Virus record (IMG/VR): IMGVR_UViG_3300046411_000177
Location: 1-33,945 of that record
DNA: 33,945 nt
Source: a virus
Strand: one strand, 5' to 3'
A program made the position numbers and the translations under genes. A model generated the notes under the pieces. The model was not told where the DNA came from. It did not search any database and worked only from the letters and a program-made list of their open reading frames with translations. Position 1 is the first letter of the stretch. Each line of letters opens with the position of its first letter. Below are positions 10,949 to 20,338 of the stretch, in pieces.

Positions 10949-11315
10949 GCCGCACACCTTTTGAGTCTACATATTGGCCGTGTGCAGATAACCATTTTTC
11001 TGCTTGCGTAGGGTTGTCCATAAAATCATGCGTCAACATGTCCAGCATTGTCCATTGCCTCACAGGGATCGGCTCGCCAGGCTTCGCCTCTGGTCTGAAT
11101 TGCGAAGGACTCCCGCCCATTTTGTTAGCACGACTCAACCACATGTTTACGAATCTGGACATCCCCCGGCGCGTCTTACGCTTGCTTGGATTCGATTCCA
11201 GCCAACAGTCCATTGCGTCTAACTCAGTAAAAACATCCACTTCTTTGTAAGCGTGCTGCCACTTCGCAAGTTGCTCGTCCGAGGGTTGCCAATCGTCACC
11301 TTGTTTGGTCTTCAT
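10938..11315 (-). CDS. Replication-associated protein (phage O / primosomal C-terminal-like)
   Basis: A 125-residue protein with the pattern D-W-x-P-S near the start and C-W-L-E-S-N-P-S-K-R-K-T-R-R-G-M-S-R-F-V-N-M-W-L-S-R in the middle. The second pattern is seen at the C-terminus of phage replication proteins and in stand-alone primosome-like proteins, where it is thought to contact a helicase or loader. There is no separate helicase or primase in the window, so this may be the main link to the host replisome. It overlaps both neighbours by short stretches. The role is inferred from similarity of pattern and from location beside SSB and recombination genes. Confidence 0.6.
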   Translation of the reverse strand: MKTKQGDDWQPSDEQLAKWQHAYKEVDVFTELDAMDCWLESNPSKRKTRRGMSRFVNMWLSRANKMGGSPSQFRPEAKPGEPIPVRQWTMLDMLTHDFMDNPTQAEKWLSAHGQYVDSKGVRHVR

Positions 11316-11719
11316 TCGTAATCACTCCGCGTCAGCTCTGGCAAGTGCGTAGCAGCTTGATTCGCTGATTTGCGTTTTCGGGTTCTGAAAAAGCCGCCGT
11401 GGTCTGGAAACATTGTCATAAACCTCCTAGCGTAAAACGACGAGTAATTGTTGTTCAGTTTAAATTGTTGCTTTTTAGCATAAGAGACTGGCTGTCCGCC
11501 GTTTATACATCCAGAGCCAACAAAACCGTCATTTTGCCAAGGAGGCCGCACAACATCCTGCTCCCACCGGATTCTTTCAAAAATGCCTTTCGCAGAATAA
11601 TGCTTGTGTCCTGCAGCAATCAGTTCGTCAGTAAATCGTACGAATAATCTCCACACTTCTGGGTGCTTTTTATGGAAAGCCTCGCACTGCTCCCTCATTT
11701 CTTGCTCTCTGGTTTTCAT
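11312..11719 (-). CDS. Conserved phage protein of unknown function
   Basis: A protein of about 135 residues with the pattern A-F-H-K-K-H-P-E-V-W-R-L-F-V-R-F near the start, H-Y-S-A-K-G-I-F-E-R-I-R-W-E in the centre and L-N-N-N-Y-S-S-F-Y-A-R-R-F-M toward the end. I recognise this as a conserved protein of many phages and prophages, usually in the replication region, with no agreed function. Its N-x-N-x-x-x-x-x-Y-A-R-R segment and basic tail could bind DNA. The ATG at 11717-11719 (or the adjacent one at 11720-11722) is chosen because AAAAGGGGAA stands just upstream. It is the first gene after the structured non-coding gap. Confidence 0.75.
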   Translation of the reverse strand: MKTREQEMREQCEAFHKKHPEVWRLFVRFTDELIAAGHKHYSAKGIFERIRWEQDVVRPPWQNDGFVGSGCINGGQPVSYAKKQQFKLNNNYSSFYARRFMTMFPDHGGFFRTRKRKSANQAATHLPELTRSDYE

Positions 11720-14748: not shown

Positions 14749-14772
14749 AAAAAAAAGGGGGCTTACGCCCCC
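14749..14772 (-). terminator. Rho-independent terminator of the lysis operon
   Basis: The minus strand reads GGGGGC-GTAA-GCCCCC followed by eight T: a six-pair GC-rich stem (14757-14762 with 14767-14772) and a perfect U-tract (14749-14756). It stands 26 bases past the endolysin stop and separates the lysis operon from the early promoter. Confidence 0.92.
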
Positions 14773-14798: not shown

Positions 14799-15158
14799 TC
14801 AATATGACCAGATGGTCGGATGTGGTCGGTCAGTGTCCCAATCGAGATGTATAAATCTGCCGTTACCCTTTTGATTTACACCAATGCGCGGGCAACCATG
14901 CTTTATGGCTGTCTGTATAAGCCTGTGGGCCTGTTCGCGGCTTACACCTATATCTACGGCTTTGCCGGTCGTGTGCGCCCCAGGACGCTCTTTACGCGCT
15001 TCTATGGGATGTAACTTACATCTGTACCCAGACGTTATTGGTAGCGGAAAGCCTAATTCTTCACGAATAGCGTTTAAATATGTTCTGACTGCTGGGTCAA
15101 AAACTAGCTCTTCACAACCGCACTGGCAGCGCAGTTCTTTGTCGCTGAAGTAGCTCAC
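14799..15158 (-). CDS. Endolysin, peptidase M15 family
   Basis: A 119-residue zinc peptidase expected to cut peptide cross-links of the host cell wall. The VanY/M15 pattern is visible: I-T-S-G-Y-R-C at 41-47, G-A-H-T-T-G-K-A-V-D-I at 60-70 with zinc ligands H62 and D69, and F-I-H-L-D-W at 102-107 with H104. The N-terminal C-Q-C-G-C may add stability. No signal peptide is seen, so release should depend on the holin genes just upstream. It overlaps the small membrane gene by four bases and is the last gene before the terminator. Confidence 0.92.
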   Translation of the reverse strand: MSYFSDKELRCQCGCEELVFDPAVRTYLNAIREELGFPLPITSGYRCKLHPIEARKERPGAHTTGKAVDIGVSREQAHRLIQTAIKHGCPRIGVNQKGNGRFIHLDWDTDRPHPTIWSY

Positions 15159-15349
15159 TCCTTCTTGCCAAGAAAAACCGCAAACGACCCGGTTAACGCG
15201 CCGGTCATCACTGACACAAGAGCCGCTTGCTCAGGGTTGGGATCGGGCAATGACATAAACCATTCAACGGTTCGATACGTCATAACGATCATGGCGAACA
15301 TTAATAGCCGTGGAATAATTCGCCATGCATTCAGCTGCTCCGGTGTCAT
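15155..15349 (-). CDS. Small two-span membrane protein (holin-like)
   Basis: A 64-residue protein with two likely membrane spans, about residues 11-30 (R-L-L-M-F-A-M-I-V-M-T-Y) and 41-58 (A-A-L-V-S-V-M-T-G-A-L-T-G-S-F-A-V-F), joined by an S-L-P-D-P-N-P-E-Q loop. I have the impression of similar small proteins beside lysis genes in environmental phages. Overlaps of four bases with both neighbours suggest equal expression. It may be a holin, antiholin or membrane helper. Confidence 0.7.
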   Translation of the reverse strand: MTPEQLNAWRIIPRLLMFAMIVMTYRTVEWFMSLPDPNPEQAALVSVMTGALTGSFAVFLGKKE

Positions 15350-15747
15350 TTCTCTCGCGCTATGCTTTTGGTTTTTTCAAAGGTTCGTAGACCACCAAGA
15401 CCGAGCATTCCGAGAAGAACCGTGAGTAGGCTTTCCATTTCGAATACAGGTAGCTCAGGGGTTTGTACGCCAGCCACCGCAATGCCAAAAACGACAAGAG
15501 GCTGACCGACAAAATGCCAAGCCAAAGCGACACCGCAAGTCCACCCAACAAATGGCCTCCAACCAGCGACAAATAGCGACTTGTGCGCGGCTTCGGCCTT
15601 GTTGATTTCCAGTTGCCCTTTAGCGAGCTCTTGGGCGTGACGCTCCGACATGGTCGCAATTTCATGAGCAAGCCTCGCTTTTTCGTCTGCATCTGGGATG
15701 AATTTATCTAGCAAGCCGGTGACGGGGCCAATTAATGCCTGTAACAT
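15346..15747 (-). CDS. Holin of the three-span family
   Basis: A 133-residue protein with a cytoplasmic helical N-terminus (to about residue 60), then W-R-P-F-V-G-W-T-C-G-V-A-L-A-W-H and two further hydrophobic spans, the last carrying L-L-G-M-L-G-L-G-G-L-R-T-F-E-K. The W-R-P-F-x-G-W plus G-x-R-T-x-E-K pattern is typical of the GTA/phage three-transmembrane holin family. It forms membrane lesions that release the endolysin. Identification is strong. Confidence 0.9.
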   Translation of the reverse strand: MLQALIGPVTGLLDKFIPDADEKARLAHEIATMSERHAQELAKGQLEINKAEAAHKSLFVAGWRPFVGWTCGVALAWHFVGQPLVVFGIAVAGVQTPELPVFEMESLLTVLLGMLGLGGLRTFEKTKSIAREK

Positions 15748-15944
15748 TAGTCATCATCCTCTGCTACAAACCGGCCTTTATCGTCCCTTTTACGTTTTTT
15801 CTCAAAAATATCTTGGACAGTGTCGGTTTCCCAAATTCGGATCAACGTCCAAATAATGGTAAACAGAGCGGCCAACGGCGGCAAAAGTGCGGTGATTGCA
15901 CCCACCGCAGTTGCCACCGACACCGTGTCTACTACTTGTTTCAT
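15747..15944 (-). CDS. Small membrane protein of the lysis cassette
   Basis: A protein of about 65 residues with a hydrophobic stretch A-V-G-A-I-T-A-L-L-P-P-L-A-A-L-F-T-I-I-W-T-L-I-R-I-W and a highly charged C-terminal tail (E-K-K-R-K-R-D-D-K-G-R-F). The ATG at 15942-15944 is favoured because GGGAGAGG precedes it; an ATG four codons upstream is also open. It may be a second holin, a membrane anchor or a lysis regulator. One base is shared with the three-span holin gene. Confidence 0.65.
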   Translation of the reverse strand: MKQVVDTVSVATAVGAITALLPPLAALFTIIWTLIRIWETDTVQDIFEKKRKRDDKGRFVAEDDD

Positions 15945-15962
15945 ATCCTCTCCCATCGCAAA

Positions 15963-16337
15963 TTACTCCGACCACCCGTCATCCTGGTCTGTATAAAATC
16001 CGTCTCCGTCTGTATCGCAAAATCTCTGCCACGACACCATGCTAAAGCTCAAGCCTTCAGACCAAGGCACATAGTTTTTACACCACTCGTGAGAGCCTAC
16101 TGGATACTGCTCAGATACAACCTCTGTATACACTGAGTCTCTTTTTTGGCTTGGCGTGGCGACCTTAAAATAAACGCTGCCGTCTGCGTAGGTAGATTTT
16201 ACATACATCAAAGCATCGGTGACGTAAACTTTCTCGTTAGGCTGCACGGTGTACGTTTGACCATCAGGGTAGTCAATATAAGTCTGCGCGCTGACAAGGG
16301 GAGAAAACAGTAATACAAGTAGGGCTGTTCTTACCAT
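15963..16337 (-). CDS. Secreted protein with acidic calcium-site-like C-terminus
   Basis: A 124-residue protein starting at the ATG at 16335-16337, which has AGGA eight bases upstream. Residues 1-18 (V-R-T-A-L-L-V-L-L-F-S-P-L-V-S-A) form a Sec signal peptide. The mature part is beta-rich with many Tyr/Val, has two cysteines, and ends in D-T-D-G-D-G-F-Y-T-D-Q-D-D-G-W, which looks like an EF-hand-type calcium loop. It should go to the periplasm. It follows the other exported proteins of this module. A spanin role is conceivable, but there is no lipobox. Confidence 0.65.
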   Translation of the reverse strand: MVRTALLVLLFSPLVSAQTYIDYPDGQTYTVQPNEKVYVTDALMYVKSTYADGSVYFKVATPSQKRDSVYTEVVSEQYPVGSHEWCKNYVPWSEGLSFSMVSWQRFCDTDGDGFYTDQDDGWSE

Positions 16338-16365
16338 GGTGCGATCCTCGATTACAAATGATTGA

Positions 16366-16394
16366 CATGTACATGGCGAAACCATGCGAGTGTA
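16366..16394. repeat. Inverted repeat between two export-module genes
   Basis: TGTACA occurs at 16366-16371 and 16389-16394, and between them CATGG (16370-16374) can pair with CCATG (16380-16384) around a five-base loop. The element lies in the 74-base gap before the secreted-protein gene at 15963. It may affect translation or mRNA stability. There is no U-tract, so it is not a terminator. The rest of the gap contains no gene. Confidence 0.4.
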
Positions 16395-16411
16395 CATATT
16401 CTCACATTTAG

Positions 16412-16636
16412 TTACGCATAGGTATCAATTGCTCTGCCTTTCGTAGCATCGGTAGAAGGAGTGGTATCAACTGATGTGGGCTGAAATCTGACCTTAGCCG
16501 CCTCAGCAGGCATCTGAGCATTGCTCAAAGTAGTCGGGTTCATCGCAGGGTTAGCCGCACCCGCAACAATACCCGTGGGATTCTGCATAAAGTTGGGCCA
16601 CCGAATACCGCCCACCTGCAAAGGGTCGCCTGCCAC
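16412..16636 (-). CDS. Short Pro/Ala/Asn-rich unknown protein
   Basis: A 74-residue protein that starts with GTG at 16634-16636, seven bases from the upstream stop, with AGGAG nine bases before it. The content is mostly Ala, Pro, Asn and Thr with W-P-N-F-M-Q-N-P-T-G near the start and no membrane segment. It is probably unstructured. It lies between the coiled-coil membrane protein and a secreted protein, so it may be part of the same assembly. No family was recognised. Confidence 0.5.
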   Translation of the reverse strand: MAGDPLQVGGIRWPNFMQNPTGIVAGAANPAMNPTTLSNAQMPAEAAKVRFQPTSVDTTPSTDATKGRAIDTYA

Positions 16637-16642
16637 CGCTTG

Positions 16643-17113
16643 TTACTCCTCGCTGTTAAGAGGATTGTCTAAAATACGCTCGATACGCTCTTCTAAATCG
16701 TCGCGCATAGTTCTAAGCTCAGTGTTTATATCTCGCAACGAGTCATTAACGCGCTCTTCCAAAGCATACACATCGTCCCGCAGCTCTCGAGTAGCCTCTG
16801 CAACAGTGTCGTCTGTACTGCGAGCGATTGACTCTACTACATCAATGTCAGCCTGGAGGCGATCTAGCTCTCTCTCTAACGCCTCAGTCAATGACTCTAC
16901 GTTGCTCATCTTAGTATCTATGACGGCTAACGCCTCATCATAATTGCTAAAGTCAGGTGACACGTATTCCGTTACCGCCTGCTCTGCGGTCAACAGCCGT
17001 TGATACAGCTCAAAACCACCCCACATGGCGGCTAAAATACTGCCCAGAAACGGTATCGCAAGCAGTAACTTACCGCCCGAAACCTTTAGTCCCGCAAATT
17101 CTATTTCTGCCAT
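16643..17113 (-). CDS. Membrane-anchored coiled-coil protein
   Basis: A 156-residue protein with an N-terminal V-S-G-G-K-L-L-L-A-I-P-F-L-G-S-I-L-A-A-M-W-G-G-F-E-L-Y membrane span (about 10-36), then Y-V-S-P-D-F, then a long coiled coil (about 60-145) rich in Leu/Glu/Arg/Asp heptads. Proteins with this plan recur in environmental phages near the lysis genes. It could span or brace the periplasm, as spanins do, or anchor the secreted proteins encoded just upstream, with which it overlaps by 13 bases. The role is inferred. Confidence 0.65.
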   Translation of the reverse strand: MAEIEFAGLKVSGGKLLLAIPFLGSILAAMWGGFELYQRLLTAEQAVTEYVSPDFSNYDEALAVIDTKMSNVESLTEALERELDRLQADIDVVESIARSTDDTVAEATRELRDDVYALEERVNDSLRDINTELRTMRDDLEERIERILDNPLNSEE

Positions 17114-18969
17114 TGAATGTCCACCAAATCTTTATATGTGTCTGAACCGCCAATCCTTAACACGCCAAAAGGGTCAACGCGCGGAGCGTTCTTCGGGTAG
17201 ACCTGAGTGCTCTTATAAAACTCATCGCGGTCAGATAGGTTTACCTCCCCGTACTGATCAAAAGCAGGATTGTTGGATATTAGAAAAACAGTAAGGCTTT
17301 GATCTGTAAAGCCGCCTGTATCAGATAAAGTGTCCAATTGATTATCAATACTCTGCTCAACCTGCACTTCGCTCATAGTCTTAATGGCTACCGTTGCCTT
17401 CTCGACCATTCTTTGTTCTTGGATGGTTGGCTCTTCAACATCAAAACGGCTGAAATCTGGGGGCTGTGCGGATAGAAACTGACCCACGCTTTGCCCGGTC
17501 GCCAGTGCATCGTTGAAGTCATCCTCAAATTGAGCTTGTGACGGCGGCGCTACCTCAACAGCGGCGGTGCTATTTGACTGTTGTTGCTGAGATTGTTGTA
17601 TCAACGCCTGAGAGATCTTGGTCTGCTCGGTAGCCATCTGCCAATAGCTTTGAGTGCCCGGCTGACTAACGACCTGAGCCACTTGCCCCATTGACTTTGC
17701 TTTTTGCGACCCGCTTACTGGATTACTTAATTGCGTTGATTGCGTCGATTGCTCTTGCGCAAGCGATAACGCTATCCCGACTACATCGACGGCTGGTCTT
17801 ACGACCGTGCGCACAGATTCCGCAATAGGCTCTAAGCGAGTTGTTGCCGCTACCTCGATAGGCGCCACTTGCTTTTCCCTAACGGGAGGCTCTACCGGCG
17901 CCTCTTGCCTCACTTGCACCACTTCTGGGTTTGGACGCCTTGTAACCCTTGCAACTTCAGCAATGATTTCCTCTGGCTCGGCCTGCCTCAGATTCCTTTC
18001 TTCTTTGATTGGCTTAATCTTTTCTTCCGCTTCGATGCTCGGCAAAGGCTCAACCATTTCAAGTGGCTCTTCAGCCGCAGGGGGTTCATTATCAATGCGT
18101 GGCCCTGACTGAGGAGGAGGCTCACCATCCATACGCGGTTTAGATTCAGGAGGCGCGCCAAACATTTCGGCCTCTTGCTCAGTGGTTTGATAAACCTGAG
18201 GAGCTTCAACCTGCTTCAAAGCCCGTGGTTTTCCTGTTCTGTCTGGTTGATCCAAAAACAAAAAATCATCAGGAGAGTCGCCAAAAACCACATTTGTAGC
18301 CTGCTCCGCAAAAGTTGGCGGCTTTGGCTCTTCAACCACCACCACCACTTGTTGCGCGGCCACAGCCTCCGCATAACCCGCACAAGACGGATCATTCAGC
18401 GGATTTGAGCAATCAGGCAGAATAATGGTATTAGTGCTGACTGGAGTATATATTGCGACCACAGAGGCATTTCGGACGGCTGGCCCGTAGTTTCCAGCCC
18501 AAAACCCTCGGTCTACGCCGTCAATTCGTAAACTTACTGCCTCGTAGGCGGCACTGAAATCGTATACCTCAGCACCGCTAAAAGTCTGCCACTCTTGATT
18601 AAAGTCTCGTCGATTAAAGACTTCTCGGACATCAGAGTCTCCGGCCTCATTGCCCACCGCCAAAAACGCCTGTATTTCATCCTCAGTCCCATTAGGATCT
18701 GCGCAGTACCCCCCTATTTGATTGTTGCAGTTGTACAGGGCATCAAAAGACCAGTTCAGAGTCAGTACCTGCAGGGGATCATAGACAGGCAATACGCCAA
18801 CCGCAGTCACATTACCCGTGACATAGCTGTACCTGTAAGTGCCAGCCGTAGCGTTAAAATTAATATTGTTCGACGCCGTTGTAGCAGTCAGTAAGTTCTC
18901 AGACGTTTGTGTCTGACCGTACCCAGCACTAGAGCAAAGCAGAAATAAGGCACTCGCGAGACGCTTCAT
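17101..18969 (-). CDS. Large secreted protein with Pro/Glu-rich periplasm-spanning region
   Basis: A protein of about 622 residues. The ATG at 18967-18969 is chosen because residues 1-18 (K-R-L-A-S-A-L-F-L-L-C-S-S-A-G-Y-G) make a Sec signal peptide. An N-terminal beta-rich domain (about 20-200) has four cysteines (81, 89, 187, 196) and D-C-S-N-P-L-N-D-P-S-C-A-G-Y near its end. Then comes a Pro/Glu/Val-rich, TonB-like stretch (210-380), a Gln/Ser-rich part, and a C-terminal domain ending F-G-V-L-R-I-G-G-S-D. It follows the Asn-rich secreted protein by one base. It may be envelope-associated or virion-associated; the sequence does not decide. Confidence 0.65.
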   Translation of the reverse strand: MKRLASALFLLCSSAGYGQTQTSENLLTATTASNNINFNATAGTYRYSYVTGNVTAVGVLPVYDPLQVLTLNWSFDALYNCNNQIGGYCADPNGTEDEIQAFLAVGNEAGDSDVREVFNRRDFNQEWQTFSGAEVYDFSAAYEAVSLRIDGVDRGFWAGNYGPAVRNASVVAIYTPVSTNTIILPDCSNPLNDPSCAGYAEAVAAQQVVVVVEEPKPPTFAEQATNVVFGDSPDDFLFLDQPDRTGKPRALKQVEAPQVYQTTEQEAEMFGAPPESKPRMDGEPPPQSGPRIDNEPPAAEEPLEMVEPLPSIEAEEKIKPIKEERNLRQAEPEEIIAEVARVTRRPNPEVVQVRQEAPVEPPVREKQVAPIEVAATTRLEPIAESVRTVVRPAVDVVGIALSLAQEQSTQSTQLSNPVSGSQKAKSMGQVAQVVSQPGTQSYWQMATEQTKISQALIQQSQQQQSNSTAAVEVAPPSQAQFEDDFNDALATGQSVGQFLSAQPPDFSRFDVEEPTIQEQRMVEKATVAIKTMSEVQVEQSIDNQLDTLSDTGGFTDQSLTVFLISNNPAFDQYGEVNLSDRDEFYKSTQVYPKNAPRVDPFGVLRIGGSDTYKDLVDIQWQK

Positions 18970-18970
18970 G

Positions 18971-19894
18971 TCACATCCGCCTCTCTGGCGTAGGCACACG
19001 ATCGGGATAGGTCTCCCACAAAGCCTTAGCCTCATCACCTATTTGGCCCTCAATCGGGCAAGGTGTACCGGCATCCATCATAGAAGACCAGACCCGGTAG
19101 TCTTGGCACATCAGGCTAACAGCGGCTACGCGCATACCCATGTCGTAAAGAGTTTTGCTAAGTTTAATTCGCTCGCAATTCTTATCTCTTACAGACTTGC
19201 CGGTCGAAAAACCTAATATCTGGGTCTGCACCGCCCCTGAAATACCTGTGGTACATAGGTCTTGGCTGTAGCTGCTGCCAATCGATGGGGCTATCGCGCT
19301 TGGCGGCGGTGAATTTATGTCCTGCGTAATCCTTTGCGTTGAGTCGCTAGTCGAGTTGCTAGTTGAATTACTGTTGTTGGTATTCGTATTGTTATTGTTT
19401 GAGCTTACCTCGGATGTTGAATTGCTTGTCTGAGTAATCGTTGAGTCAGAAGTTGACAAGCTAACGCTGTTGCTGTTGCTTGTGCTCGTGCTTGTATTCT
19501 GATTAATGTTTGTAGCACTGCTCACTGAGGTGTTGTTGTTTGTATTAATAGCGGTGCTGACAGAAGTGTTCGTGTTGTTGTTGGTGTTGTTGGAGCTAGA
19601 ATTATTAAAATTGCGTATCACGCCGCTGTACTGGGTACTGTTTATGTTGGTGTTCTGATTAATCGCATTTGACGTTGAGTCAATCACGGATGTGTTTAGG
19701 TTCGTAGAGGTATTAGTGTTGACGTTAGCGTTTGTAGACGTACCCGTGTAAGTCGTCGTATTTACGTTATTGTTGGTATTGGCATTAGTTGAGGTGCTGG
19801 TCGCCGCCGAGGTCGTATTTATATTCGTCGTCGTCTCATCCGCCAAGGAAAGGGCAGGCCACAAGCACATCAAAATAAATAGTAGACGTTTCAT
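18971..19894 (-). CDS. Secreted Asn/Thr/Ser-rich protein with a four-cysteine C-terminal domain
   Basis: A 307-residue protein. Residues 1-18 are a signal peptide cut after S-L-A. Residues about 20-194 are almost all Asn, Thr and Ser with few other residues and only about five charges. Codons for Asn and Thr are mixed, so the repeat is kept at protein level. Residues about 208-300 form a compact domain with cysteines at 214, 240, 263 and 279, and the patterns D-K-N-C-E-R-I-K-L-[SA]-K, A-A-V-S-L-M-C-Q-D-Y-R-V and G-T-P-C-P. Two disulfides are likely in the periplasm. The pattern looks like a conserved phage module, but I know no function. Confidence 0.7.
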   Translation of the reverse strand: MKRLLFILMCLWPALSLADETTTNINTTSAATSTSTNANTNNNVNTTTYTGTSTNANVNTNTSTNLNTSVIDSTSNAINQNTNINSTQYSGVIRNFNNSSSNNTNNNTNTSVSTAINTNNNTSVSSATNINQNTSTSTSNSNSVSLSTSDSTITQTSNSTSEVSSNNNNTNTNNSNSTSNSTSDSTQRITQDINSPPPSAIAPSIGSSYSQDLCTTGISGAVQTQILGFSTGKSVRDKNCERIKLSKTLYDMGMRVAAVSLMCQDYRVWSSMMDAGTPCPIEGQIGDEAKALWETYPDRVPTPERRM

Positions 19895-20311: not shown

Positions 20312-20338
20312 GAAAACGCGAAAGGGGGCAAAGCCCCC
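20312..20338 (-). terminator. Hairpin terminator after the capsid gene
   Basis: The minus strand has GGGGGC-TTT-GCCCCC (20324-20338) a few bases after the capsid stop, followed by TTTCGCGTTTTC. The stem is strong and the U-tract imperfect, so it may be a partial terminator that lowers expression of the downstream module relative to capsid. Confidence 0.65.

Follow-up and report, generated by a model that had tools for sequence, protein, structure and literature searches.

Three adjacent genes in the phage sequence analysed here, which we call A, B and C, make up one portable cassette that probably works in the envelope of the host at a late stage of infection. The sequence (the window) is a complete IMG/VR record of 33,945 bases, classed as linear, from a podovirus-like phage whose capsid protein falls in phrog_1328, its scaffold in phrog_3927 and its portal in phrog_1216; the cultured relatives that are nearest by capsid share <45% identity with it. 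An initial annotation had read six minus-strand ORFs at 15747–19894 as a possible single system acting on the envelope. All six ORFs are present and closely packed, they encode more exported and membrane-anchored proteins than a holin and an endolysin need, and an action in the envelope is plausible. Only A, B and C are linked to each other, however, and the six-gene unit is ruled out because 16412, 15963 and 15747 occur apart from A-B-C in relatives. All of the window features for which coordinate ranges are given below lie on the minus strand.

Gene A (18971..19894, 307 aa) starts with a Sec signal (19838–19894), continues with an Asn/Ser/Thr-rich region that is disordered in the AlphaFold2 model (19325–19837) and ends in a conserved domain with four cysteines at about 18995–19288. 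Cys214, Cys240, Cys263 and Cys279 are all invariant in the homologue alignment, and the total length varies widely through the spacer, from 123 to 510 aa. The model has pLDDT values of <50 at residues 18–188 and >90 across most of residues 240–300, and it confidently predicts short strands followed by four helices in the C-terminal domain. Comparison of A with PDB folds gave nothing better than E = 2.4, for a full-length query in which the disordered part could mask weak matches, and the viral fold matches were solely uncharacterized phage proteins, including gene 51 of Achromobacter phage phiAxp-2. By profile, A belongs to phrog_20531 (E = 1.3e-13), a PHROG family of unknown function; no meaningful match to A or B was found in Pfam, NCBIfam or PADLOC. 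Gene 51 of phiAxp-2, also in phrog_20531, resembles A in having a signal, an Asn/Ser-rich linker and a Cys domain, but no B or C is visible alongside it. In Achromobacter phages, the hosts of which are culturable, this A-like exported protein adjoins an exported Gly/Ser-rich protein of 164 aa (44598–45155 and 45216–45710, minus strand, in phiAxp-2; L295, KT321316.2).

Gene B (17101..18969, 622 aa) also carries a Sec signal. Its start is the ATG at 18969, one base past the stop of A, and not the GTG at 19038 that had been assumed. The signals initially noted on A and B are clear; a home-made signal heuristic was positive for 136/140 A homologues and 118/124 B homologues, against 22/114 of the capsid, scaffold and portal proteins used as controls. 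AlphaFold2 models residues 51–176 (18442–18819) as a β-sandwich with a pLDDT of about 60–79. According to Foldseek, this sandwich matches the Fbs1 sugar-binding domain, CBM4, CBM16, MAM and the phage 1358 RBP (E from 5e-5); the Fbs1, CBM4 and CBM16 matches (E = 5e-5 to 1e-3) fit a CBM-type or galactose-binding jelly roll, and at this moderate model confidence the N-terminal domain is predicted to resemble carbohydrate-binding domains. A repeat scan located a Cys motif, CSNPLNDPSCAGY, at 18373–18411; this 22-residue motif (CxxNPLYDxxCPGYxxAY), tandemly repeated in many relatives of B, has 1–7 copies among them and a single copy in the window. The AlphaFold2 model has a disordered middle (residues 225–440) and a helical C-terminus, which is conserved and has LVDIQWQK as its last residues. 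L110 and L190 match B only from about residue 182–214 onward and L142, L148 and L126 match it in the N-terminal domain only; judged from these partial alignments, the N-terminal domain is swapped independently of the C-terminus. A tblastn search with B against INPHARED gave no match, and profile–profile comparison linked pelagiphage B to window B with a probability of 95%, sequences common to both profiles having been left out.

Gene C (16643..17113, 156 aa) is a membrane-anchored coiled coil, as initially described: a short N-terminal segment is followed by one transmembrane helix and an acidic coiled coil, and the C-terminus reads DNPLNSEE. NP[LMIV] followed by no more than six residues forms the C-terminal end of 80/80 C homologues, compared with 0.55% of background ORFs, and the C profile matches 43 of the 46 records that hold A. 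Searches of Pfam, NCBIfam and PADLOC with C gave coiled-coil noise only. The 'lysozyme' label that C carries in the Roseobacter phages CRP-207 (L104:3292–3873) and CRP-810 (L212:7210–7632) is likely to be a misannotation of such a membrane-anchored coiled coil. Pelagiphage C matches window C weakly by profile (probability 30%); the two are linked by their position, their membrane anchor and the NPL end. Two C-like proteins are encoded by HTVC115P (L100; 9541–9969 and 8815–9198), with an annotated toxin-activating lysine-acyltransferase 2 kb beyond the pair.

When A is taken as the starting point, a gene with a transmembrane segment and an NPL end is found on the same strand no more than 4.7 kb away in 66/68 loci (46/46, 10/10 and 10/12 in three locus sets) versus 1/240 background windows; the ends in the two loci missed, L202 and L203, read ENPLSNMA.... 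Starting from C, A lies upstream in 46/46 eligible loci, both counts covering only loci with enough flank and partly related phages, so that they are not independent. The sequence distances of the three proteins are also correlated (Mantel rank correlations of 0.53 for A–B, 0.41 for A–C and 0.47 for B–C), with 0/500 permutations as high. Among the sequences compared, the linkage of A, B and C is above chance and near-obligate. Gene order is conserved for A-B-C and not for the six genes as one unit. Independent scatter in other phages, which had been named as an argument against a joint system, was seen for 16412, whereas A, B and C show near-invariable co-occurrence and joint divergence.

According to tblastn, A occurs in the SAR11-infecting isolates HTVC115P, HTVC033P, HTVC023P, HTVC202P, Baldr and the T4-like pelagimyophage Mosig and, beyond these pelagiphages, in the Roseobacter isolates CRP-207 and CRP-810 and in an Autographiviridae genome. 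In each of these phages the next large gene encodes an exported protein and is followed by a TM/coiled-coil protein ending in NPL; the trio is unannotated. At least 592 stretches in IMG/VR match the A-domain profile and at least 582 match the C profile. Three sister phages (L002, L003 and L004) have a capsid protein that is 94–99% identical to that of the window, and in L002 the holin (99%) and endolysin (95%) are near-identical as well; all three are without A-B-C. The trios most similar to that of the window (B 75–80% and C 95–97% identical) come from 12 contigs, some of them short, of which 0/12 showed the window capsid gene. Because near-identical sisters are without the trio and none of the contigs with its closest copies yielded this capsid gene, the trio is, as far as these genomes indicate, swapped as a block among many unrelated aquatic phages. 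The A-B-C slot of the sisters (10964–11633, plus strand, in L002) is occupied by proteins of 66 and 159 aa, the latter of which is C-terminally anchored and belongs to phrog_32327 (unknown function). One clade has three extra exported genes with conserved cysteines, D, E and F, between B and C (L196:4971–6231, plus strand; also L141, L159, L163, L170, L172 and L176). By eye these appeared to be pilin- and chaperone-like, but profile searches gave no Pfam, PDB or NCBIfam match, and a profile comparison of F as a paralogue of A was negative.

Protein 16412 (16412..16636) lies outside the cassette. It is small, of low complexity and disordered, as had been noted, and has no signal. Copies that are 82–91% identical are found next to a tail gene in L082 and L091 and after the holin within the holin cassette in L094; from these placements it moves independently of A-B-C. 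Protein 15963 (15963..16337), the most likely start of which is the ATG at 16337 (MVRTALLVLLFSPLVSAQ), is small and exported, in line with the initial reading, and has no relatives in INPHARED. Its C-terminal Asp-rich stretch, DTDGDGFYTDQDDG, is calcium-loop-like and is missing in L002. Protein 15747 (15747..15956) is indeed a small membrane protein, with a single hydrophobic transmembrane segment and a charged C-terminus; it weakly matches the holin family phrog_920 (E = 0.32), and a holin-like nature is unproven. Homologues of 15963 stand immediately in front of 15747 and the holin in L087 and L088, which have A-B-C, and also in L002 and L003, which do not, and the position of 15747 directly before the holin is conserved in the sisters without A-B-C; the two genes therefore belong with the lysis cassette. 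The genes downstream include a holin of the GTA three-TM type (15346..15747; PF11351, E = 2e-23), an M15 peptidase endolysin (14799..15158; PF08291, E = 4e-12; phrog_894, E = 5e-27) and a small membrane protein of phrog_10198. Two small lipoprotein genes are present in the lysis region of the capsid relatives L008, L009, L011, L012 and L048 and absent in the window. The terminator that the six genes were said to share is convincing by eye as an intrinsic-terminator-like hairpin closing the operon (14757..14772; six G–C pairs followed by eight T), but terminator-like sites are no more numerous in the region than in shuffles. The count of promoter-like sites is likewise no higher than in shuffles, and a second hairpin reported near 20324 was not called in the scan for terminator- and promoter-like sites.

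What the data show directly is that the genes are linked and exchanged and which export signals and domains are predicted; from this we infer a function in lysis or in exclusion. Our preferred reading, to which we assign a probability of roughly 40%, is a late accessory envelope-breakdown complex that is tethered to the inner membrane, works in the periplasm and aids virion release. C would be anchored in the inner membrane, its coiled coil and conserved Asn-Pro-Leu end facing the periplasm. The host Sec system would export A and B, which are probably disulfide-bonded; as the cassette has no secretion gene beyond Sec, both would be periplasmic by default. A and B may assemble on C via their conserved C-terminal domains, and the sugar-binding-like domain of B may contact peptidoglycan or LPS, with the trio working alongside, not instead of, the holin, endolysin and spanins. 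This reading is supported by the position of the trio before the holin and endolysin in the window, by the finding of a stand-alone endolysin within about 5 kb of A in 11 of the 17 records with a recognized one (several of the 11 being interrelated) and by Rz, lipoprotein and lysozyme genes directly behind C in L150, L154, L164 and L185. Against it, the trio lies about 25 kb from the holin in CRP-810 and >20 kb from the endolysin match in HTVC202P and HTVC115P, other phages likewise carry it at a distance from their lysis genes, and the sisters with near-identical lysis genes have neither the trio nor a lipoprotein replacing it. A generic role in lysis would also not call for an exchangeable sugar-binding-like domain in B.

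The main rival, which we consider somewhat unlikely, is superinfection exclusion or envelope remodelling, in which a periplasmic complex would stop a second phage (at DNA passage or receptor access) and the β-domain of B would set the specificity. The separate exchange of this domain would suit such a role, as would the wide variation of the spacer in A and of the number of Cys repeats in B and the dispensability of the trio, shown by its absence from the sister phages. However, the trio is found in structural and lysis regions and not with early genes, and PADLOC gave no known defence family for A or B and coiled-coil noise for C. A late-promoter-like sequence, TATAAATA, 189 nt upstream of A in Mosig also points away from exclusion; it is suggestive, yet the chance expectation is about equal.

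That the trio replaces Rz/Rz1, with C as the i-spanin and A or B as a lipid-free outer-membrane partner, is improbable. C does resemble an i-spanin (a type II inner-membrane protein with an N-terminal TM and a periplasmic coiled coil) in the topology predicted for it, the Rz-like phrog_739 matches C of L112 (E = 7e-5), a lysis-cassette neighbourhood is frequent and no lipobox ORF was found in any frame of the window. The lipobox scan picked up lipoproteins of known type in L164 and L009 and missed the AYSC-type one in L150. Unlike Rz/Rz1, though, the trio has no lipoprotein partner, the lipobox being missing from A and B, and it has two large soluble exported proteins. Moreover, an overlapping lipoprotein and Rz lie directly behind A-B-C in L150, L154, L164 and L185, and trio and lipoprotein genes are not exchanged for one another among the capsid relatives, L035 holding both. 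A canonical spanin pair thus coexists with the trio, and on these grounds a spanin substitute was rejected. The T4 holin T and antiholin RI, which act in lysis inhibition (PMC11413866), resemble the trio in pairing a single-TM protein that has a periplasmic domain with an exported partner, but the families do not match, C is built as a coiled coil and ends in NPL, and the window has a separate three-TM holin.

We give little credence to a virion component, such as a set of ejection or surface proteins with signal-like N-termini: the trio adjoins capsid, tail-fibre or terminase genes in several phages, but its Sec signals are of the cleavable type, its Cys pairs are conserved, it accompanies virions of unrelated types (podo-, myo- and autographivirus) and near-identical virion gene sets occur without it. 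For the type VIII secretion genes of pelagiphages, a fibre linking sibling cells has been proposed (PMC7029224, PMC9599517); this curli cluster, like the trio, is an exported envelope module of several genes that occurs in podo- and myophages of SAR11 and moves between phage families (PMC7029224, PMC9599517, PMC9004378), but its gene set is different. A curli-like surface fibre made by the trio to hold sibling cells together is highly improbable, since the long Asn/Ser/Thr-rich stretch of A, which together with the curli genes of other pelagiphages would favour it, is predicted to be disordered, A, B and C have no curli match in Pfam (no curlin repeats in A or B), and CsgG and CsgF gave 0 matches in the window record, with positive controls detected; a curli identity was therefore rejected.

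A search of open-access literature yielded no account of the trio; as the tests for membership in known systems also failed, we provisionally regard the trio as new. Tentatively, it may be an undescribed three-component trans-envelope machine shared by podo-, myo- and autographiviruses. In such a machine A would contribute a new fold and C a tether ending in NPL, and its action on the periplasm or the outer membrane would differ in mechanism from that of spanins, holins and curli. Little is known of how marine phages open the envelope of their host or defend it, and many phage genomes, including those of many marine cyanophages, have no recognizable spanins (PMC6139136). The conserved termini of the trio, together with natural sister phages that have it and lack it, make its function directly testable. 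If a role in envelope breakdown or exclusion is true, the trio would be a new phage machine of wide distribution.
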